From NCBI RefSeq assembly GCF_017308985.1, contig NZ_JADWPE010000002.1, forward strand, positions 558,001-622,000: 64,000 bases of DNA. The letters are read 5' to 3'. The notes under the pieces are model-generated. The model was not told where the DNA came from and did no database searches. It saw only the letters and a list, made by a program, of their open reading frames with translations. A program made the position numbers and the translations under genes. Source of the stretch: Lysobacter changpingensis (GTDB lineage: Bacteria; Pseudomonadota; Gammaproteobacteria; Xanthomonadales; Xanthomonadaceae). Shown here in pieces: positions 9,270 through 40,654 of the stretch (its first letter is position 1; each line of letters starts with the position of its first letter).

Positions 9270-9772
9270 CGCGGCGCGCCGTGGGCTGGGGCCTGCTCGG
9301 TGGCGTGGTCGCCGGGACGCTCGACATGCTCTACGCCACGGGCTTCTGGACGCTGCATGGCGTGGCATCGCAACGCATCTTCCAGAGCGTCGCGGCGGGC
9401 GCGCTCGGAACCGCTGCGTATGCCGGCGGATGGACGACGGCGATGCTCGGCCTCGCCCTGCATTACCTCATCGCCGCAATGATGGGCCTGGCGTATGCGT
9501 GGGCTGCGCGCGACGCCCCGGCGCTGCGCGACCGCCCGTGGCGCCTTGGCGCGCTGTACGGACTGGTGCTGTACGCGTTCATGACCTTCGTGGTCGTGCC
9601 GCTGTCGGCGTCGCCGCGCAGCGCGACCTTGCCGGTGTCGTGGACCGTGTGCAGCGTGATCGCGCACGTCGCGCTCGTCGGCTGGCCGTGCGCGTGGTTC
9701 GCGCGGCGCGGCTGGGACGGCCGATGGTCGCGAAGACCGGTATCGCACGCATTCGTCGATTCCACGACCTGA
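9257..9772 (+). CDS. Small membrane protein, paralogue of 7657-8175
   Basis: 171 residues, about four membrane helices, with the same landmarks as the 7657 protein (TLDMLYA, RIFQSVAAG, LGALYGLVLYAFMTF, VPLSASPR). The ATG lies inside the last codons of the AraC gene in another frame, giving a 13-base overlap. The C-terminal tail is basic and soluble. Tight coupling with its own regulator suggests that this regulator controls its own operon. Function unknown. Confidence 0.75.
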   Translation: MRGVTRRAVGWGLLGGVVAGTLDMLYATGFWTLHGVASQRIFQSVAAGALGTAAYAGGWTTAMLGLALHYLIAAMMGLAYAWAARDAPALRDRPWRLGALYGLVLYAFMTFVVVPLSASPRSATLPVSWTVCSVIAHVALVGWPCAWFARRGWDGRWSRRPVSHAFVDSTT

Positions 9773-9859
9773 CCGCACTTCCCCCTCGCTCGCGCGCCCG
9801 CATGGAGCACGCGGCGCCGCACCGCGCGCATGCGGCCCGCACATGCATGGAGTCATGCC

Positions 9860-10333
9860 ATGAACGTAGTGAAACCCGCCCTGCTCGCCGTGCTGGCCGC
9901 GAGCGCGATGATGGTCCTGCCGGCGAGCGCCGGCGAATGCAGGAAGATCCACGCGGACCTCGACGAGGTCCAGTCCACCCAGGGCTGCAATCCCGGCCTG
10001 AGCGGCTGCTTCCTCGGCGAAGTCGACGGCAACCACGGCCTGCGCGGCACCACGCACTTCAATTCCGACAGCGCGGTGCAGACGAGCCCGTCGACCTCGC
10101 CGAACTTCATCATCTACAGCGGACCGTTCGAATATCGCACCGGCCGCGGCACCATCGTCGCGCGCGAAACCGGAGCGACGACGCGCGGCAGCGAGGGCGT
10201 GGTGACGGCGTACCAGCAGATCGTGTCGGGCACCGGCGAATTCGCGGGCGTGACGGGCTATTTCTTCGTCAGCGGGCACAAGAGCGGCGGCACCGTCGAC
10301 ACCTTCGTCAACGGTGAAATCTGCGCGCCATGA
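9860..10333 (+). CDS. Secreted protein of unknown function
   Basis: 157 residues with a clear signal peptide (hydrophobic core, cleavage near ASAGEC at about residue 26). The mature part has three early Cys (CRK, GCN, GCF) and one near the end (EIC), which could form two disulfides in the periplasm. The second half (GRGTIVARETG ... VSGTGEFAGVTGYFFVSG) alternates as expected for a small beta-barrel and weakly recalls the allene oxide cyclase-like/dirigent fold, but I would not name a family on this. The ATG follows GGAG. Confidence 0.7.
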   Translation: MNVVKPALLAVLAASAMMVLPASAGECRKIHADLDEVQSTQGCNPGLSGCFLGEVDGNHGLRGTTHFNSDSAVQTSPSTSPNFIIYSGPFEYRTGRGTIVARETGATTRGSEGVVTAYQQIVSGTGEFAGVTGYFFVSGHKSGGTVDTFVNGEICAP

Positions 10334-10341
10334 GCGATCGG

Positions 10342-10373
10342 CCAGCGCCGTTGCCGACGGGCAACGGCGCTGG
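10342..10373 (+). terminator. Strong hairpin after the secreted protein gene
   Basis: Perfect 14-bp stem (CCAGCGCCGTTGCC and its complement) with a four-base loop, nine bases past the stop. There is no T-tract, but the stem is long enough to be the gene's terminator. Confidence 0.55.
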
Positions 10374-10485
10374 ATGCACGGCCTGCGCTGCGGCGGGACC
10401 TGAACGTCGCCGCGCGAAAACAGCGCCACGCAGTGCGTCATTGCGTTCAAAATAGCGCCCTTTCGTGGAGCAGGGCCGGGGACGC

Positions 10486-11931
10486 ATGCGCATTGGAATC
10501 GACTTCGGCACCAGCTATTCGGCGGCCGGCGCGGTCGTGGACGGCCAGGTGCAGCTGATCCGCTTCGGCGATGCGCGGCAGTTCCGCACGACCGTGTTCT
10601 TCCCGCAGCGCCTGCCGGACGTGCATCAGTTCGAACTGACCGACGCACTGCAGGAACAGGCCCGGCAGTGGGCGGCCACCGCGAAGAGCGGGCAGACGCG
10701 CGAGATCGCGCGACTGGACGCGCTGCGACGCGACGCGATGAACCAGCCCGCGCACCGGCGCGCCGAGGCGCTGGCGCAGATCCCGACCCTGCGCAGGCGC
10801 AGCGACGACGAGCTCTGGCGCGCGGCCGTCGCCGCGGTGCGTCGCGACTGGGCCGCCACGCAGGTGCGCGAGGCGATGGAAGCGAAGGCCGACGTCGGCA
10901 ACGCGCTGTACGGCGATGAGGCCGTCGATGCGTTCCTGTCGGCCGGCGAAGGCCATCTCGTCGTTTCGCCCAAGTCGATGCTCGGCTACAAGCTGGAAGC
11001 GCACGCGCGCGACGTGCTGCTCGGCATCGCCACGCACATCCTGCGTCACATCCGCATCACCGCATCGGAGCAGCTCGGGACCGACGTGCGCGCCGCGGTG
11101 CTCGGCCGGCCCGTGCAGTTCCGCAGTTCGATGAAGGAAGCCGGTGGCGTGCAGGCGCTGGAAATCCTGACGGATGCCGCCAATGCCGCCGGCTTCGAGG
11201 ACGTGAGCTTCCTCGAGGAACCGTCCGCGGCCGCCTACGGTTATCACCGCAGCGTCGATCGTCCGCGCCGCACGATGATCCTCGACATCGGCGGCGGCAC
11301 GACCGACATGGCGTTGGCCGACGTCGGCGGCGATGCACCGGTGCCGGTGATCCGCGGGTCGTGGGGCCAGCCGGTGGGCGGCACCGACGTGGACCTGGAA
11401 CTGAGCCTGCGCGGGGTGATGCCGGTCTTCGGCAAGGGGGTCACGCCGACGCCGGTGCATCGCTACTCCGAGGCGTCGCACGTGCAGGACCTGCAGCGCC
11501 AGGCGAGTTTCCGCGCCGCGAACTTCGACGACGTCGCATCGCCGTATCGCGAGCGCCTTCATGCGCTGAAGCGATCCGGCCACACCGTGCGTCTGAACCG
11601 CGCGGTGGAGCGCGCCAAGATCGAGCTCGGCGAGCAGGCCAGCGTCACGCTGGAACTCGACTACATCGAGGACCACCTGCGTTGCACGATCGACCAGGCG
11701 CGCCTGCACGAGGCCGCGCAGCGGCCGTTCCTGTTCCAGCTGCGCGAGCTGATGCACGCGGCGAAGGGCGGTGCCGCGCAGGCGCCCGAGGTGGTGTATC
11801 TCACCGGCGGCATGTCGCGTTCGCCGTACGTGCCTGCGCTGGCGGCGGAAGTATTCCCCGATGCGCGGATCGTGCGCGGCGACGCATCGCTCGGCGTGGT
11901 GACCGGACTGGCGCACGCAGCGGCGGCATAG
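10486..11931 (+). CDS. Hsp70-family ATPase, YegD-like
   Basis: 481 residues. It carries the actin/Hsp70 nucleotide-binding signatures: phosphate-1 GIDFGTSYSAAG at the N-terminus, phosphate-2 ILDIGGGTTDMAL in the middle and the adenosine motif YLTGGMSRSPYVPAL near the C-terminus. The protein stops soon after the ATPase domain, so there is no canonical substrate-binding domain, as in E. coli YegD. The ATG follows GGGG. No dnaJ or grpE is nearby, so it is not a stress operon member here. Biological role of this subfamily is not established. Confidence 0.85.
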   Translation: MRIGIDFGTSYSAAGAVVDGQVQLIRFGDARQFRTTVFFPQRLPDVHQFELTDALQEQARQWAATAKSGQTREIARLDALRRDAMNQPAHRRAEALAQIPTLRRRSDDELWRAAVAAVRRDWAATQVREAMEAKADVGNALYGDEAVDAFLSAGEGHLVVSPKSMLGYKLEAHARDVLLGIATHILRHIRITASEQLGTDVRAAVLGRPVQFRSSMKEAGGVQALEILTDAANAAGFEDVSFLEEPSAAAYGYHRSVDRPRRTMILDIGGGTTDMALADVGGDAPVPVIRGSWGQPVGGTDVDLELSLRGVMPVFGKGVTPTPVHRYSEASHVQDLQRQASFRAANFDDVASPYRERLHALKRSGHTVRLNRAVERAKIELGEQASVTLELDYIEDHLRCTIDQARLHEAAQRPFLFQLRELMHAAKGGAAQAPEVVYLTGGMSRSPYVPALAAEVFPDARIVRGDASLGVVTGLAHAAAA

Positions 11932-11941
11932 TGCCTGCAAC

Positions 11942-11972
11942 GTCCGCCGCTCCTGCAAGGAGAGCGGCGGAC
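11942..11972. terminator. Bidirectional terminator between the Hsp70-like gene and pntB
   Basis: 11-bp perfect stem GTCCGCCGCTC/GAGCGGCGGAC with a nine-base loop, in the 51-bp gap between two convergent genes. Confidence 0.6.
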
Positions 11973-11982
11973 ATTGGCGTCG

Positions 11983-13389
11983 TCAGTGTCCGCCGCCGTC
12001 GAGCGTCTTCAGCTCGCTCACCAGCGCGCTCGCCATTTCCGCCCCATCGCCGTAGAGCATGCGCGTGTTGTCCTGGTAGAACAGCGCATTCTCGATGCCG
12101 GCGAAGCCCGTGCCCTTGCCGCGCTTGATCACGATGGTGTTCTTCGAATTGGCGACGTCGAGGATCGGCATGCCGTAGATCGGCGAGGCCGGATCGGTCT
12201 TCGCCACCGGATTCACCACGTCGTTCGCGCCGATCACCAGCGACACGTCGGTGTTGGGGAATTCCGGGTTGATGTCGTCCATGTCGGCGATGAGGTCGTA
12301 GGGCACGCCGGCCTCGGCGAGCAGCACGTTCATGTGACCGGGCATGCGTCCGGCGACGGGATGGATGGCGAACTTCACCTTCACCCCGCGCTCCATCAGC
12401 TTCTGCGTGAGTTCCCAGATCTTGTGCTGCGCCTGCGCCACGGCCATGCCGTAGCCGGGCACGATCACCACGCGCTCGGCGTAGGCCATCATCGCCGCGA
12501 CGTCGCCGGCTTCGATGGGCTTCTGCGAACCCGTGATCGCGTCCTGCGCCTGCCCGCCGCCGCCGAAGTTGGAGAACAGCACGTTGCGGATCGGCCGGTT
12601 CATCGCCTTGGCCATCAGCTGCGTGAGCAGCGTGCCCGCCGCGCCGACCATGGTGCCGGCGATGATCAGCGCCTCGTTGCCCAGCACGTAGCCCTCGAAT
12701 GCGACCGCAAGACCGGTGAGCGCGTTGTAGAGCGAGATCACCACCGGCATGTCGGCGCCGCCGATGGGCAGCGTCATCAGCACGCCCAGCGCGAGCGCCA
12801 GCACGAAGAAGCCGACGATCGCCGGCACGCTGAGCGAATGCACGACGATGCCGCCGAGCACCAGCATCGCGACGAATACCGCGAGGTTGAACAGCTGTTG
12901 TCCCGGGAAAACGACGCGCTTGTCGAGGCGGCCGTCGAGCTTGGCCCACGCGACGATCGAACCCGACAGCGAGATAGCGCCGATCGCCGCGCCGATCACC
13001 GCCAGCACCAGCGCCGTCGGCGACGGTGCCTGCCCGACGGACGCGAAACGCAGCAGTTCCACCGCGCCGATCGCCGCCGCCGAGCCGCCGCCCATGCCGT
13101 TGTAGAGCGCGACCATCTGCGGCATGTCGGTGATGGCGACCTTCCTGCCGGAGATCCACGCGGCTGCGGTACCGATCACCAGCGCGGTCACGATCAGCGG
13201 CAGGTTGTGCAGTCCGGGGAGCAGGAACGTGGCGGCAGTGGCGATCACCATGCCCAGGCCCGCCCAGCGGATGCCGCTGCGCGCGGTCACCGGCGAGGCC
13301 ATGCGTTGCAGGCCCAGCAGGAACAGCGTGGCGGCGACGAAGTAGCTGGCGGAAGCGACCCAGACGAGCACGTTCGCCGTGGCGCTCAT
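11983..13389 (-). CDS. pntB: NAD(P) transhydrogenase subunit beta
   Basis: 468 residues. The N-terminal two thirds are membrane helices of domain II; the C-terminal 180 residues are the NADP(H)-binding domain III with VPGYGMAVAQAQH and the late motif VIGANDVVNPVAK. Together with the alpha subunits it couples proton translocation to hydride transfer between NADH and NADP+. Its ATG overlaps the pntA2 stop as ATGA, so the two are translationally coupled. The alpha-1 subunit is not in this operon but at 15542 on the other strand. Confidence 0.95.
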   Translation of the reverse strand: MSATANVLVWVASASYFVAATLFLLGLQRMASPVTARSGIRWAGLGMVIATAATFLLPGLHNLPLIVTALVIGTAAAWISGRKVAITDMPQMVALYNGMGGGSAAAIGAVELLRFASVGQAPSPTALVLAVIGAAIGAISLSGSIVAWAKLDGRLDKRVVFPGQQLFNLAVFVAMLVLGGIVVHSLSVPAIVGFFVLALALGVLMTLPIGGADMPVVISLYNALTGLAVAFEGYVLGNEALIIAGTMVGAAGTLLTQLMAKAMNRPIRNVLFSNFGGGGQAQDAITGSQKPIEAGDVAAMMAYAERVVIVPGYGMAVAQAQHKIWELTQKLMERGVKVKFAIHPVAGRMPGHMNVLLAEAGVPYDLIADMDDINPEFPNTDVSLVIGANDVVNPVAKTDPASPIYGMPILDVANSKNTIVIKRGKGTGFAGIENALFYQDNTRMLYGDGAEMASALVSELKTLDGGGH

Positions 13390-13688
13390 GCCTTGCCTCC
13401 GGGCTTCCGGCTCGACTTGAACATCTCCAGCATCCGCTCGGTCACCACGTAACCGCCCGCCGCGTTGCCCGCGCCGAGCAGCACGGCGAGGAAGCCGATG
13501 GCCTTCTCCAGCGTGGTGTCGGCATGGCCGAGCACCACCATCGCGCCGATCAGCACGATGCCGTGGATGAAGTTGGAACCCGACATCAGCGGCGTGTGCA
13601 GGATCACCGGCACGCGCGAGATGATCACGTGGCCGGCGATGGCCGCCAGCATGAAGATGTACAGCGCCACGAACCCGTCGCCCATCAT
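13386..13688 (-). CDS. pntA2: NAD(P) transhydrogenase subunit alpha part 2
   Basis: 100 residues with three membrane helices, the small membrane part of the alpha subunit (SGSNFIHGIVLIGAM, VLLGAGNAAGGYVVTERML). In three-subunit transhydrogenases this is a separate polypeptide that joins PntA1 and PntB. Two adjacent ATGs (13688 and 13685) follow a GGATGGGGATGG run and are equivalent. Stop and pntB start share four bases. Confidence 0.92.
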   Translation of the reverse strand: MMGDGFVALYIFMLAAIAGHVIISRVPVILHTPLMSGSNFIHGIVLIGAMVVLGHADTTLEKAIGFLAVLLGAGNAAGGYVVTERMLEMFKSSRKPGGKA

Positions 13689-13886
13689 CCATCCCCATCC
13701 AGTTGTCGTCGGCATCATAACCGCGGATGAATGCGGCGCCAGTCGTGTCAACCGGCCCGGCGCCGGGGCGTTCCCCTTCCCGCAAGGCCACCCGGGCCGA
13801 CACGAGGAAGGACCGCGACGCATGACCGCATCGACCATCGCCCCGCGTGCCGGGACCGCTGGCGTCGGCATCGCCCCGGACCCCGT

Positions 13887-35950: not shown

Positions 35951-37140
35951 TGCCCGGCCGCGTGCCGCCAGAACGCGTGCGTCAGCGGCGGCAGCTTGCC
36001 GGCCAGGCCCAGCAGCGGGCCGCGCAGCAGCGTGGCGGCGAGCGAATCGTTCGAGAACAACCGGTTGATGCCATCGAAGGCATAGGCCGACAGCGCGTTC
36101 CCGCTGCGCTGCGCGCGCGCCCAGCGCGACAGTCGCGATGCCGGATCGATGCCGCGCTCACGCGCATCGGCGGCGGTGCGACGCAGGGTCGCGACATCGC
36201 GCAGCCCCAGGTTCACGCCCTGCCCCGCCAGCGGATGCACCGCGTGCGCGGCATCGCCGATCACCGCGATGCGACCGCTCGCCAACGACTGCGCGAGTTG
36301 CAGGCGCAACGGGAACGCGGCGCGCCGCGATACGCGCGTCGATGCGCCGAGCGTGCCGGCGAAGGCATTGTCGAGTTCGCGCAGGAACGCCGTCTCGTCG
36401 GCTTCGAGCAGACGCTGCGCTTCGGCCTCCGGCAGCGTCCACACGATCGAACTGACGTTGTGTGCGTCGAAAGGCAGGAACGCGAGCGGCCCGGTCGGCA
36501 GGAAGCGCTGCCAGCACGTCGCCTGATGCGGCCGCTCGCTTTCGACGAACGCGACCAGCCCGCGCTGGCCGTAATCGTGGCGTGGCGCTTCGATGCCGGC
36601 GAGCGAACGCAGCTTCGACTCCGCGCCGTCGGCGGCGACCACAAGCTTCGAACGCAGCGACAGGCCGCTTTCGAGCACGACCGTCGCGCCGCTTTCGTCC
36701 TGTTCGAATCCGACCACGCTGTCGGGGCAATGCAGCTGCACGCCGGCGCCGGGCAGCGCGTTCCAGAGACGGTCGACCAGCAGGGCGTGCTCGACGATCC
36801 AGCCGAGTTCGCGACGCCCGAAGGCATCCGCATCGAACGCGAGCTCGCCGCCGCCGGCGGCATCCCACACGCGCATCGCGCGGTACGGCTGCACGCGCGC
36901 GTTCGCGACCTCGCGCCAGACGCCCAGGTTGTCGAGCAGCGCCGCGTTGTCGGGCGCGAATGCATACACGCGCAGGTCGATGCGATCGGCATCGGTGGGC
37001 AGCGGCTGCCATGCGGGCGGCTGGCGGGGTTCCACCAGCGCGACCCGCATTCCATCGCGCGCGAACGCAAGCGCGGCAGCCGCGCCGACCACGCCGGCGC
37101 CGACGACGATCGCGTCGAGTCCCGATCCGCGACGGCTCAT
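35947..37140 (-). CDS. FAD-dependent ubiquinone-biosynthesis hydroxylase, UbiI/VisC type
   Basis: 397 residues. GxGxxG motif AIVVGAGVVGAAAALAF at the N-terminus and GDAAHAVHPLAGQGVNLGLRDV near residue 290, as in UbiH/UbiF/UbiI/VisC monooxygenases. The GDAAH form differs from the GNAAQ of the adjacent UbiH, so it is a different member of the family. It likely hydroxylates a ring position of the ubiquinone precursor. Its ATG overlaps the ubiH stop by four bases, so it is expressed with it. Confidence 0.88.
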   Translation of the reverse strand: MSRRGSGLDAIVVGAGVVGAAAALAFARDGMRVALVEPRQPPAWQPLPTDADRIDLRVYAFAPDNAALLDNLGVWREVANARVQPYRAMRVWDAAGGGELAFDADAFGRRELGWIVEHALLVDRLWNALPGAGVQLHCPDSVVGFEQDESGATVVLESGLSLRSKLVVAADGAESKLRSLAGIEAPRHDYGQRGLVAFVESERPHQATCWQRFLPTGPLAFLPFDAHNVSSIVWTLPEAEAQRLLEADETAFLRELDNAFAGTLGASTRVSRRAAFPLRLQLAQSLASGRIAVIGDAAHAVHPLAGQGVNLGLRDVATLRRTAADARERGIDPASRLSRWARAQRSGNALSAYAFDGINRLFSNDSLAATLLRGPLLGLAGKLPPLTHAFWRHAAGQ

Positions 37141-38429
37141 GCGTGCACCTCGCGGCACAGCGCCGGCACGTCGCCGCGGTATCCCATCGCGCCGCCGACG
37201 AGGAACGACTGCACCGAGGCAACGCGATCGACCGCGAACAGGCCGAGGCTGCGCAGCGGACGCAGGAGCGTCGCGTCGTTTGCGGTCAGGCGCGCGAGGC
37301 CGTCGGAGAACCCGATCGTGCGCTCGCGGTCCTCGCGGCGCCGTTCGGCATAGGCCTGCAACAGCGCATCGCTGCCGCAGTCGGCCTGCGCATCGAGCGC
37401 GCGCGTGTCCTCGATGAGTTCGGCGAGCGTGAGCGCGTCGCGCAAACCGAGGTTGAAACCCTGCGCGCCGATCGGATGGATCGTCTGCGCGGCGTTGCCG
37501 ACCAGGACCGCACGCGAGGCGATGGTGCGCTGCGCGACGACGCGGATCGCCGGATGCGAACTGCGCGGGCCGCACGAAAGAAAGCGTCCCGCGCGCCAGC
37601 CGAACGCGTCCTGCGCACGCGCGAGGAACCCGGCTTCGTCGAGCGCGGCGACGGCATCCGCGTCTTCGCGCGCGACGGCGTGGATCAGTCCGTGGTGGCG
37701 ATCGCCGCGCGGCAGAAGGGCGGTCGGGCCGTGGTCGGTGAGGCGCTCGAAGGCGGTGCCGTCCGGCGGGCGCGAGCTGCGCAGGCGCGCGACGAACAGC
37801 GTCTGCGCGTAATCGTGCTCGTCCACGCCGATGCCCAGCGCGTCGCGCACGAGGCTGCGCGTGCCATCGGCCGCCACCAGCAGGCGCGCGCGCAGGATGC
37901 GTTCGCCATCGGCATCGGCCACGCGGATCGCGCGCACGTCGCCGGCGCTTTCGGCCAGGCCGATGAAACGCACGGGGCGATGGCGCAGCAGGCGCGTTGC
38001 GTCGGCGAGACGGGCTTCCAGCGCCTCGCCGAAATCGCGCGCGACCACGACCCGACCGAATTCGCTGCGCCCGTAGCGCGAGGCATCCAGCAGGCCGCGA
38101 CCGAAATCGCCGCGCCGGCTGACGTGGATGCGTGCGATCGCGCCGGTGGGCGCGCGCAGCTTCTGCATCACCTCCAGTGCGGTCAGTGCGTTGAGCGTGG
38201 CTTCGGCGAAGCTGAGGTTGCGCTCGTCGAAGACCGCCGGGAGCGCGCCGGGCGGCGTCGCCTCGACCAGGCCGACGACGAGGCCCAGGCGCTCCAGCGC
38301 GATCGCCAGGCTGGCACCGACCAGGCCACCGCCCACGATGAGGACATCGTGGAGATCGTGGGACGGACCTTGGGCGAGGGAATCTCCGGGCGCGCCGGAG
38401 GGCGGGTTTGAGGGGGCCGCGACAGGCAT
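37137..38429 (-). CDS. ubiH: 2-octaprenyl-6-methoxyphenol hydroxylase-like UbiH
   Basis: 430 residues. VLIVGGGLVGASLAIALERLG for FAD and the UbiH-type GNAAQTIHPIGAQGFNLGLRD (Gln instead of His), as in E. coli UbiH. The N-terminus has about 25 extra residues before the FAD motif, so a start slightly further in is possible. It is one of the flavin hydroxylases of ubiquinone synthesis. It starts the two-gene operon with the UbiI/VisC-type gene. Confidence 0.9.
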   Translation of the reverse strand: MPVAAPSNPPSGAPGDSLAQGPSHDLHDVLIVGGGLVGASLAIALERLGLVVGLVEATPPGALPAVFDERNLSFAEATLNALTALEVMQKLRAPTGAIARIHVSRRGDFGRGLLDASRYGRSEFGRVVVARDFGEALEARLADATRLLRHRPVRFIGLAESAGDVRAIRVADADGERILRARLLVAADGTRSLVRDALGIGVDEHDYAQTLFVARLRSSRPPDGTAFERLTDHGPTALLPRGDRHHGLIHAVAREDADAVAALDEAGFLARAQDAFGWRAGRFLSCGPRSSHPAIRVVAQRTIASRAVLVGNAAQTIHPIGAQGFNLGLRDALTLAELIEDTRALDAQADCGSDALLQAYAERRREDRERTIGFSDGLARLTANDATLLRPLRSLGLFAVDRVASVQSFLVGGAMGYRGDVPALCREVHA

Positions 38430-38482: not shown

Positions 38483-39109
38483 ATGAACCGTCCCGCTTCC
38501 GCCTCGCCTGCCGCCCACGACCGTCCCGCTTCCGGCCTGTTCGCGCCCGGTCCGCTGGTGCTCATCGGCATGATCGTGATCGCCGCGCTCACGCGCCTGT
38601 TGCCGCATCCGCCGAATTTCTCGCCGGTCGAAGCGGTGGCGCTGTTCGGCGGCGCCTACTTCGCCTCGCGCGCGCTGGCGATCGCGGTGCCGCTGGTGGC
38701 GATGCTGGTGTCGGACCTCGTCCTCGGCCTGACGCTGGGCGGGACCTACTTCGAACACTTCACCAGCCCGGCCTACCTGGCGACGTGGCTGTCGGTGTAC
38801 GCGTGCATCGCGATCTCGGCGGTGCTGGGCTTCGGCCTGCGCGGTCGCGTCAACGGCGCGCGCGTGCTGGGCTATTCGATCGTCGGCTCGGTGCTGTTCT
38901 TCGTGGTCACCAACTTCGCCGTGTGGGCGACGGCCACGCCGATGACCGCGCATCCGGCCTGCCTGGTCGGCCTGGGCCCGTGCTACGTCGCCGCGCTGCC
39001 GTTCTTCCAGTGGACGGTGCTGGGCACGCTGTTCTACGCCGCGCTGCTGTTCGGCGGCTTCGCCCTGCTGCGCCGCCGCGTCCCGGCGCTGCGCGCGCAG
39101 ACGGTCTGA
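38483..39109 (+). CDS. DUF6580-like membrane protein, possible transport component
   Basis: 208 residues with about six membrane helices. The segment LPHPPNFSPVEAVALFGGAYF followed by a helix ending SDLVLG is the pattern of the DUF6580 (putative transport) group. The size and helix count are like those of small S-component transporters. It lies 65 bp upstream of a cobalamin adenosyltransferase gene on the same strand; that context suggests a corrinoid link, which is inference. It has three Cys in the middle and late part (C108, and two in HPACLVGLGPCY). Confidence 0.7.
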   Translation: MNRPASASPAAHDRPASGLFAPGPLVLIGMIVIAALTRLLPHPPNFSPVEAVALFGGAYFASRALAIAVPLVAMLVSDLVLGLTLGGTYFEHFTSPAYLATWLSVYACIAISAVLGFGLRGRVNGARVLGYSIVGSVLFFVVTNFAVWATATPMTAHPACLVGLGPCYVAALPFFQWTVLGTLFYAALLFGGFALLRRRVPALRAQTV

Positions 39110-39174
39110 GAAGGACGGGATTCGGGATTCCGGATTCGTAAGAAGCCCGTCTCCGAATCCCCATCCAGACTCAC

Positions 39175-39729
39175 ATGGGCAACCGTCTCTCCAGGATCTA
39201 CACCCGCACCGGCGACGACGGCACGACCGGGCTGGGCGACGGCAGCCGCGTCGCGAAGGACTCGGCCCGCGTCGCCGCGTACGGCACGGTGGACGAAGCC
39301 AATTCGTGCATCGGCCTGGTGCTGGCGAGCGACGTCCCCGACGACGTCCGCGCGCTGCTGACCACCGTGCAGCACCAGCTGTTCGACCTGGGCGGCGAGC
39401 TGTGCATCCCGGGCCATGCCGCGATCGTCGACGCCGACATCGATCGCCTCGAACAGCAGCTCGACGCCTTCAACGAACCGCTCCCGCCGCTGAAGGATTT
39501 CATCCTGCCCGGCGGCGGCGAAGCGGCGGCGCGCTGCCACATCGCGCGCACGGTCGTGCGCCGTGCCGAACGCGAAGCCGTCTCGCTGTCGCGCGTCGAA
39601 ACGGTCCGTCCGGAAGCGGTGCGCTACCTCAACCGCCTGTCCGACCTGCTGTTCGTGCTGGCCCGCGTGCTCGCGCGCGCCAGCGGCCACGGCGAAGTGC
39701 TGTGGAATCACGAACGGCGCAAGGCCTGA
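39175..39729 (+). CDS. Cob(I)alamin adenosyltransferase, PduO type
   Basis: 184 residues. YTRTGDDGTTGLGDGSRVAKDS at the N-terminus, GTVDEANS, and the Arg-rich ARTVVRRAEREAVSL ... NRLSDLLFVLARV C-terminal part are the PduO-type ATR hallmarks. It adenosylates cob(I)alamin to coenzyme B12. No riboswitch-like structure is seen in the 65-bp gap upstream. The next gene follows after 13 bp. Confidence 0.93.
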   Translation: MGNRLSRIYTRTGDDGTTGLGDGSRVAKDSARVAAYGTVDEANSCIGLVLASDVPDDVRALLTTVQHQLFDLGGELCIPGHAAIVDADIDRLEQQLDAFNEPLPPLKDFILPGGGEAAARCHIARTVVRRAEREAVSLSRVETVRPEAVRYLNRLSDLLFVLARVLARASGHGEVLWNHERRKA

Positions 39730-39742
39730 CGCGCCGCGCGCC

Positions 39743-40654
39743 ATGCGCATCTACACGCATCCTGCCTGCACGCGCCACGATCCCGGCGAGGGTCACGCGG
39801 AACGTCCATCGCGACTGGTCGCGGTAACCGAAGCGCTGCGCGAGGCGTTCCCCGACCTGCACTGGGAAGAAGCGCCGCGCGCGAGCCGCGGGCAGCTGCT
39901 GCGCGTGCACGACGACGCGCTGCTCGCGCTGGTGCTCGACACGCCCGTCGATGGTCCAATGCCGCTGGATCCCGACACCGTCCTCGCGCCGGGTTCGGCC
40001 GAAGCGGCGCTGCGCGCGGCCGGCGCCGGCATCGCGGCGGTGGATGCGGTGATGCACGGCGAGGCACGACGCGTGTTCTGCGCGGTGCGTCCGCCCGGCC
40101 ATCACGCCACGCCCTCGGCGGCGATGGGGTTCTGCCTGTTCAACAACATCGCCGTCGCCGCGGCGCATGCCTGCGACAAACACGGGCTCGCGCGCGTGGC
40201 GGTGGTCGACTTCGACGTGCACCACGGCAACGGCACGCAGGCGATCTTCGATACCGACCCGCGCGTGATGTACCTGAGTTCGCACCAGATGCCGCTGTAT
40301 CCGGACACCGGTTACGCAAACGAGCGCGGCGTGGGCAACATCGCCAACGCGCCGTTGCCGCCGGGCTGCGGCAGCGAGGCGTTCCGCCGCATCTGGCGCG
40401 AGCTGCTGCTTCCGACGCTGGACTCCTTCCGGCCGCAGTTGCTCTTCATCTCCGCTGGCTTCGACGCGCACAAGCGCGACCCGCTCGCGCAGATCGAACT
40501 GGAAACCGACGACTACGACTGGATCACGCGCGAACTCGTCGCGATCGCGCAAAGGCATGGCGACGGCCGGATCGTGTCGATGCTTGAAGGCGGCTACGAC
40601 CTGGCCGCGCTGCGCGAGGCGAGCGTCGCGCACGTGGGCGCGATGCTCGCTTGA
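39743..40654 (+). CDS. Histone deacetylase-family (acetoin utilisation-like) deacetylase
   Basis: 303 residues. Zinc deacetylase motifs PPGHHATPSAAMGFCLFNN, DFDVHHGNGTQAIF and SAGFDAHKRDPLA hold the catalytic His pair and the zinc ligands. Members deacetylate acetyl-lysine, acetylpolyamines or acetoin-related substrates; this one cannot be assigned. It appears operonic with the adenosyltransferase. Confidence 0.9.
   Translation: MRIYTHPACTRHDPGEGHAERPSRLVAVTEALREAFPDLHWEEAPRASRGQLLRVHDDALLALVLDTPVDGPMPLDPDTVLAPGSAEAALRAAGAGIAAVDAVMHGEARRVFCAVRPPGHHATPSAAMGFCLFNNIAVAAAHACDKHGLARVAVVDFDVHHGNGTQAIFDTDPRVMYLSSHQMPLYPDTGYANERGVGNIANAPLPPGCGSEAFRRIWRELLLPTLDSFRPQLLFISAGFDAHKRDPLAQIELETDDYDWITRELVAIAQRHGDGRIVSMLEGGYDLAALREASVAHVGAMLA

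Follow-up and report, generated by a model that had tools for sequence, protein, structure and literature searches.

DUF6580 membrane proteins alternate with BtuM beside the adenosyltransferase gene of Lysobacteraceae and are likely corrinoid importers

Here, we observe that DUF6580, a membrane protein family of unknown function, is the alternative to BtuM in the btuM slot of the Lysobacteraceae, the two excluding each other as long as only BtuM of the strong type described below is counted. The case studied is a gene pair of Lysobacter changpingensis, located within positions 558001-622000 of contig 2 in a genome of 4.06 Mb (G000); this whole stretch of 64,000 nucleotides is called the window in the following. 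Our preferred reading is that DUF6580 acts as a solitary S-component-like corrinoid importer which works like BtuM. We consider this likely, with a probability of about 0.75, in the absence of any transport experiment. It rests on the gene pair, the slot exchange, the association with riboswitches and btuB in other phyla, a predicted fold, and the missing matches to BtuC, EcfT and CbiC in the host.

The gene pair itself is real. Its first gene (38483..39109, plus strand) encodes the 208-residue putative corrinoid importer with a modelled S-component-like fold, and matches Pfam PF20221 at 2.9e-54 with 184.1 bits, which meets the family cut-off of 27. After a spacing of 65 bp follows a PduO-type cob(I)yrinic acid a,c-diamide adenosyltransferase, ACA, of 184 residues (39175..39729, plus strand), for which a trapping role is proposed. 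It is recognised by PF01923 (4.2e-63) and by TIGR00636 PduO_Nterm (204 bits, above the cut-off of 108.45). A preliminary description, made from the sequence alone, had named a DUF6580-type membrane protein next to a cobalamin adenosyltransferase, and both assignments (PF20221; PF01923, TIGR00636) held. The left border of the slot is formed by a divergent UbiH-like FAD monooxygenase gene (37137..38429, minus strand; PF01494, 4.4e-26), which flanks most of the Lysobacteraceae loci, and the same gene order occurs in named Lysobacter and Thermomonas records (L141, L152, L154, L155). The Rfam scan of the whole window matched no family and thus no riboswitch, and a cobalamin riboswitch was also absent at the Lysobacteraceae slot in the six DUF6580 and five BtuM loci scanned with Rfam.

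To the right of the pair lies a gene for a histone-deacetylase-like protein (39743..40654, plus strand; PF00850, 1.8e-88). Such a gene is found 3' of ACA in most Lysobacteraceae loci, with either importer; it has no known B12 link and we see no apparent reason for its presence. Carriage of DUF6580 on plasmids was rejected, since a tblastn search against plasmids gave no match.

ACA adjoins DUF6580 in all 41 Lysobacteraceae loci checked, with a gap of approximately 550 bp in one of them (L043), and in ten out of ten additional loci of the family. The preliminary description had stated that a lack of co-occurrence with the adenosyltransferase in other genomes would refute a B12 role, and the co-occurrence was found. 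In 20 of 20 genomes without DUF6580, a different membrane protein of about 190-205 residues lies directly upstream of ACA. The slot protein from L066 matches PDB 8c7p/8ovv by sequence at 1.4e-30 and is therefore BtuM; in an alignment of 13 copies, a cysteine within a HYCVSP-type motif is invariant. Because of this match and this motif, we regard the slot protein of the DUF6580-less genomes as BtuM. A further eight of eight BtuM loci show BtuM directly before ACA and UbiH on the opposite side, so that the arrangement next to ACA holds in 28 of 28 BtuM loci. UbiH is the opposite neighbour of BtuM in 26 of these (18 out of 20 and 8 out of 8); the exceptions are L049, where none is found in the stretch, and L062, where it lies approximately 3 kb away. 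A chance orphan membrane gene beside ACA is excluded by the conserved pairing together with the slot exchange.

At the level of the family, DUF6580 is encoded by 111 out of 297 genomes, and it is present in all 12 genomes of the genus. In a sample of the phylum, only 4 of 299 genomes show a match, two of them above the cut-off, and the window's own genome is among the four. ACA is present in 291 of the 297 family genomes, and the BtuM profile matches 200, which we divide into a strong class of 175 and a weak class of 25 genomes (best E of the latter approximately 1e-24 to 1e-40). This split is our own reading of the E-values; G585, a genome of 57% completeness with two partial BtuM matches (best 3.1e-47), was placed in the strong class. 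The 297 genomes thus fall into 111 with DUF6580 only, 175 with strong-type BtuM only, none with both and 11 with neither, and exactly one of the two importers is present in 286 of the 291 ACA-bearing genomes. No weight is given to a Fisher value for this table, as it disregards the kinship of the genomes. Six of the 11 genomes without either importer also lack ACA. In the remaining five, ACA is either located at a contig edge (G442, G485) or separated from UbiH by a gap of about 95-135 bp, too short for either gene (G535, G495, G520). The empty slots of G520 (L205) and G495 (L206) belong to 100% complete genomes from a genus which holds both the DUF6580 and the BtuM state, and both genomes retain a BtuM-like gene at another place.

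A weak-type BtuM match additionally occurs in 22 of the 111 DUF6580 genomes, where DUF6580 is maybe not the sole candidate; the window's genome has no match to the BtuM profile, strong or weak. Eight of the 25 weak-type genomes were re-examined. In these eight, the match lies away from the ACA/DUF6580 gene, and four carry a tandem pair. The weak-type copies of six genomes (G323, G305, G314, G329, G495, G442) have a cysteine in an L3-like motif. Tandem pairs of divergent BtuM-like genes outside the ACA slot (e.g., L169/L177, L175/L182, L167/L180), with the L3-like-motif cysteine in both copies, remain unexplained. By eye, a CobB/CbiA-like ORF was seen near the divergent BtuM-like genes in L182, L171 and L174.

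A tree of the flanks, UbiH plus ACA, from 74 loci requires 13 changes of the slot state by parsimony, and at least eight of them are forced by starred branches. It comprises 74 of 79 loci, as L027, L036, L037, L198 and L049 were dropped for incomplete UbiH or ACA stretches; the loci were picked by best hit or position rather than randomly, and the tree is of a quick type. If the flanking genes had travelled together with the slot gene, fewer changes would be predicted on this tree, not more. The repeated in-place exchange between DUF6580 and BtuM argues for a common task.

The genome of the window carries two cobalamin riboswitches. One (9240-9461 in L007) precedes a BtuB gene (9567-11474), which scores 652.8 bits with TIGR01779 at a cut-off of 599.7. 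No match to FecCD, the BtuC-type permease, was found in this genome, compared to matches in 13 of 14 control genomes, and none to CbiQ (EcfT), which was found in 10 of the 14. The absence of an ECF module rests on CbiQ alone, and ATPases were outside the search. The earlier statement that there is no BtuC/D/F set here thus held genome-wide for the permease. CbiC, representing ring synthesis, gave no match either, so that synthesis of the corrin ring is not apparent in the host. No inner-membrane candidate other than DUF6580 remains in this genome among the importer families tested. The second riboswitch (9578-9867 in L008, on contig 4) precedes nrdA (10060-12549), a ribonucleotide reductase gene matching TIGR02506 above cut-off, which is followed by a beta-subunit-like ORF (12744-13763) under the cut-offs. 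It looks as if a B12-independent reductase might be shut off when B12 is present, which is no more than a possibility.

Outside the Lysobacteraceae, the B12 context takes another form. A scan of genome contigs yielded 535 relatives, and the best 80 were taken, of which 74 lie outside the family; this sample is uneven, being ranked by a query led by a gammaproteobacterial protein. Of these 74 loci, 38 contain a cobalamin riboswitch according to Rfam (RF00174 or RF01482), which reports nothing else at its gathering threshold over the 887 kb of all 74. By chance, approximately 0.3 would be expected; this estimate uses the mean density across 40 of the genomes (49 hits, 144.3 Mb) with rounded genome sizes. 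A B12 riboswitch upstream in relatives, which the preliminary description had proposed to search for, was not found at the Lysobacteraceae loci scanned and is present at these 38 outside. BtuB-like receptors, defined as tblastn hits to E. coli BtuB with E < 1e-10, occur in 37 of the 74 loci, and 35 of these 37 bear the riboswitch. The one representative scanned matched best with TIGR01779 (321.6, under the cut-off of 599.7). Twelve of the 74 loci contain ACA and nine a DUF71-like gene; at least 25 carry a BtuB-like receptor and lack any PduO-type ACA hit within the fetched stretch. The sole riboswitch falls inside the fetched DUF6580 locus in 19 of the 26 single-riboswitch genomes sampled, as verified by Rfam on the loci. 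These genome-level places were mapped assuming the same contig; those of L079, L137, L148 and L155, as well as one of two in each of L123 and L132, are not confirmed by Rfam on the locus. Three of the 40 sampled genomes have no cobalamin riboswitch at all.

The typical order is riboswitch, btuB, DUF6580 in Bacteroidetes and Ignavibacteria, and riboswitch, btuB, DUF71, DUF6580 in Verrucomicrobia, where a periplasmic binding protein often follows. In several gammaproteobacteria, btuB is divergent and accompanied by ACA, a ROK kinase and DUF6580, and in an Acidobacteria locus (L110) btuF-, btuC-, btuD- and btuB-like genes lie upstream of DUF6580. Neighbour clusters were named by Pfam from one representative each. 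The BtuM profile of the Lysobacteraceae found nothing in 37 of 37 DUF6580 genomes tested outside the family.

On the other side, 33 of the 74 loci show neither a riboswitch nor a BtuB-like gene, ACA or DUF71. Short contigs may explain some of them, but not all, and loci from Balneolia (L103, L106, L140, L151) and Bacteroidetes (L098, L111, L112) are among those without B12 signs. It cannot be excluded that some DUF6580 members have another cargo.

Three further observations concern these loci. A gene for a ROK-family sugar kinase occurs near DUF6580 in 11 of the 74 loci, all gammaproteobacterial (L084, L086, L088, L090, L091, L092, L094 and L095 among others); it precedes DUF6580 by 73-88 bp in six loci and lies between ACA and DUF6580 in L084, L086, L088, L092 and L095, and a tie to B12 is not evident. 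A HAD-family hydrolase gene is found 3' of DUF6580 in seven Bacteroidetes and Ignavibacteria loci (L104, L117, L124, L126, L138, L142, L157), in six of them less than 200 bp away. The gammaproteobacterial MAG CAJXZZ01 has two DUF6580 genes on separate contigs (L081, L139), and neither stretch shows a B12 context.

Two rival explanations can be judged from these gene neighbourhoods. The first is that DUF6580 imports another part of the B12 pathway, such as a lower-ligand base, alpha-ribazole or cobinamide only, and not complete cobalamin. Transporters of such cargo have been proposed, namely cblT/cblS for uptake of DMB (PMC8123684), and riboswitch control would also be compatible with it. However, DUF6580 replaces BtuM, a demonstrated cobalamin transporter (PMC6072759), and adjoins ACA, which acts on corrinoids, as well as btuB-like genes in other phyla. 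We thus hold this explanation to be very improbable. The second is that DUF6580 is no transporter at all, and is instead a membrane protein that prepares corrinoids or hands them to ACA, while transport is carried out by something undetected. BtuM, too, acts chemically on its cargo (PMC6072759), and the linkage to ACA is as expected for such a role. Against it, the host has no other candidate among the importer families tested, and in the outside loci ACA is present in only 12 of 74 compared to 37 of 74 for the BtuB-like gene. There is little to recommend this explanation over import of a corrinoid by DUF6580.

The fold of DUF6580 was predicted for two members. The AlphaFold2 model of the window protein, built with 69 natural relatives, reaches a mean pLDDT of 91.5 and a pTM of 0.85. 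It contains nine helices, six of which comprise at least 11 residues (22-39, 49-59, 63-85, 96-117, 125-149, 172-199), in good agreement with the earlier description of a 208-residue protein with about six helices. In the VIA second look, its top match is cobalamin-bound BtuM (8c7p/8ovv; Z 13.8, rmsd 3.3, 167-168 aligned residues), rows 3-21 are S-components or metal-uptake subunits (Z 12.3 to 8.3), and the first other fold follows at 6.3. The model of an Ignavibacterium member (L157; pLDDT 93.9) likewise matches BtuM best (Z 14.3, rmsd 3.1, 159-160 aligned residues), with a subsequent drop from 8.0 to 6.1. For both models, the next 19 or 20 rows after BtuM are S-components or CbiM/NikM-type subunits before the values fall to approximately 6; 4huq and a few other rows are what we take to be ECF/S-component-type transporters. 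With Foldseek alone, the window model had no match at E <= 0.001, its first four rows being ECF transporter chains above that threshold, and BtuM emerged only in the VIA second look. Helical bundles can attain such Z values in VIA through arrangement alone. The uninterrupted series of a single fold family, followed by a clear drop, favours a genuine structural match, and the model predicts an S-component-like six-helix fold for DUF6580. The fold alone does not name the cargo.

At the sequence level, the relation to BtuM is not established. PDB sequence searches with DUF6580 found nothing, and hhalign of DUF6580 against BtuM gave probabilities of 8.2 and 0.7. Pfam DUF6580 matches 2 of 13 BtuM proteins, at best with 9.3e-5 and under the cut-off. 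Among 68 DUF6580 members, weak hits were obtained to Spore_permease in four (best 2.3e-5) and to ECF-ribofla_trS in one (0.0055). Common descent of DUF6580 and BtuM is likely, and remains unproven by sequence. DUF6580 was not classed as a plain member of BtuM, as it has no Cys80 motif and its kinship by sequence is not proven; it is not shown to be a BtuM.

The fold raises two further rivals. DUF6580 could be an S-component that requires a motor, for example a distant ECF module or ABC proteins like BtuCD, and would then not act alone. The ECF S-component fold speaks for this, as do the BtuF-, BtuC-, BtuD- and BtuB-like genes beside DUF6580 in the Acidobacteria locus L110. It is opposed by the lack of CbiQ/EcfT and FecCD matches in the window's genome, a result that does not extend to the other phyla, and we consider it unlikely. 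Alternatively, DUF6580 could import cobalt or nickel like CbiM/NikM. The structural matches include 4m58 (Z 9.0, 9.4) and 5x3x (8.7), and cobalt importers can be under cobalamin riboswitches. But BtuM and the vitamin S-components match better, the missing CbiC match leaves no apparent cobalt-requiring ring synthesis, and the slot is exchanged with BtuM, so that this reading is extremely unlikely. A solitary corrinoid importer thus remains our preferred reading.

BtuM binds cobalamin base-off via Cys80 in loop L3, while enzymes with base-off binding usually employ a histidine (PMC6072759). The Cys80 site aligns with residues 86-105 of the window protein (38738..38797, plus strand), an extended region that separates TM3 from the conserved Tyr106. 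This region also corresponds to an HxTM-type histidine in most other DUF6580 proteins and contains no cysteine here. No cysteine is found between Asp78 and Tyr106 in the window protein and 46 Lysobacteraceae relatives. The cysteines of the window protein are residues 108, 160 and 167, none of them in a BtuM-like HYCVSP motif, and the earlier remark that membrane cysteines are present without matching the BtuM motif is thereby confirmed. As inferred from sequence, without binding data, the cobalt ligand of the window DUF6580, if there is any, must differ from Cys80 of BtuM.

Cys108 (codon 38804..38806, plus strand) lies inside the predicted helix 96-117, TM4, as its 13th residue, and aligns with the seventh residue of helix 73-90 in the L157 model. 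It is invariant in 47 of 47 aligned Lysobacteraceae DUF6580 proteins and their sole cysteine in 29. Nearly all of these 47 have a longer region after TM3 without the HxTM histidine; L022 is short and has the histidine. Among the 69 non-window rows of the wide alignment, 58 possess the HxTM histidine that follows TM3 and nine carry Cys108; four Verrucomicrobia rows and one Planctomycetes row lack the HxTM histidine and have Cys108. Of all 70 rows, 57 show a loop histidine without Cys108, six Cys108 without the histidine, four both and three neither; in two of the four (window, L152), the histidine is located elsewhere in a longer loop. The rows are interrelated and represent at least two lineages, so that the pattern is merely a lead. 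A shift of the cobalt ligand within DUF6580 may lie behind it, a tentative idea in the absence of coordinates that place these residues in the pocket.

Implementing these facts, the proposed pathway would start with BtuB, which would deliver the corrinoid to the periplasm. The single six-helix DUF6580 protein would then carry it over the inner membrane without an ATPase module, and the adjacent PduO-type ACA would convert it to adenosylcobalamin, thereby trapping the cargo. The movement of the corrinoid, its direction, the absence of a motor and the trapping by ACA are all inferred. The model is BtuM, for which a solo toppling movement of cobalamin has been proposed, with an adenosyltransferase trapping the cargo (PMC6072759). 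The BtuM of Thiobacillus denitrificans (PMC6072759; 8c7p/8ovv) resembles DUF6580 in size, predicted fold, the slot beside an adenosyltransferase, a host without EcfT or BtuC-type permease match, and the presumed solo mechanism with trapping. In contrast, DUF6580 lacks the Cys80/HYCVSP motif and an established sequence kinship, its neighbour is of the PduO type whereas BtuR is named as the adenosyltransferase adjoining BtuM (PMC6072759), and BtuM occurs mostly in Proteobacteria (PMC6072759), while DUF6580 is found by riboswitch-led btuB-like genes in Bacteroidetes, Ignavibacteria, Verrucomicrobia, Phycisphaera and Acidobacteria. The role in corrinoid uptake comparable to BtuM, put forward in the preliminary description, is thus supported, with BtuM as the direct alternative occupant of the slot and the best structural match; experimental proof is lacking.

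Other known systems are more remote. The ECF S-components (FolT, BioY, RibU, ThiT, and CbrT for B12) share the predicted fold (Z approximately 8 to 13), but the window's genome has no EcfT (CbiQ) match and there is no clear sequence match. BtuCDF fulfils the same proposed task, the inner-membrane step after BtuB, with another architecture and a permease family that is unmatched in the window's genome. The B12 subgroup of DUF71/COG2102 is a predicted B12 salvage enzyme (PMC3541065). Where its gene occurs near DUF6580, it lies mostly directly upstream (one representative was tested, PF01902), but it encodes an ATPase-like enzyme and no transporter.

Neither 'DUF6580' nor 'PF20221' was found in the literature searched, and an older name, BtuN, is possible. 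BtuN is a predicted B12 transporter, a name that reportedly stems from a comparative study of 2003; in PMC8954225, it appears as a gene name without sequence. DUF6580, or part of it, may perhaps already have been predicted as BtuN. Some DUF6580 members are labelled 'putative transport protein' by NCBI.

We regard DUF6580 as a likely unrecognised family of B12 importers, also in many other bacteria, with its generality weakened by the 33 of 74 loci that show no sign of B12. Functionally uncharacterised, exchanged with BtuM in place and residing in riboswitch-btuB settings of several phyla, the family is a direct importer candidate, and a standard E. coli complementation strain would allow its function to be tested. 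Owing to the slot exchange, natural matched pairs, with the same neighbours and a different importer, are also available for probing the purpose of the cysteine chemistry of BtuM. A bolder reading is conceivable: DUF6580 may be a second lineage of solitary corrinoid importers, of wide distribution, which in a single gene slot has replaced BtuM, and been replaced by it, many times, holding the cobalt by the L3 histidine in most members and by Cys108 of TM4 where the histidine was lost (Lysobacteraceae, Verrucomicrobia/Planctomycetes). If this were true, DUF6580 would fill a major gap in B12 uptake, namely the inner-membrane step in bacteria that lack BtuCDF.
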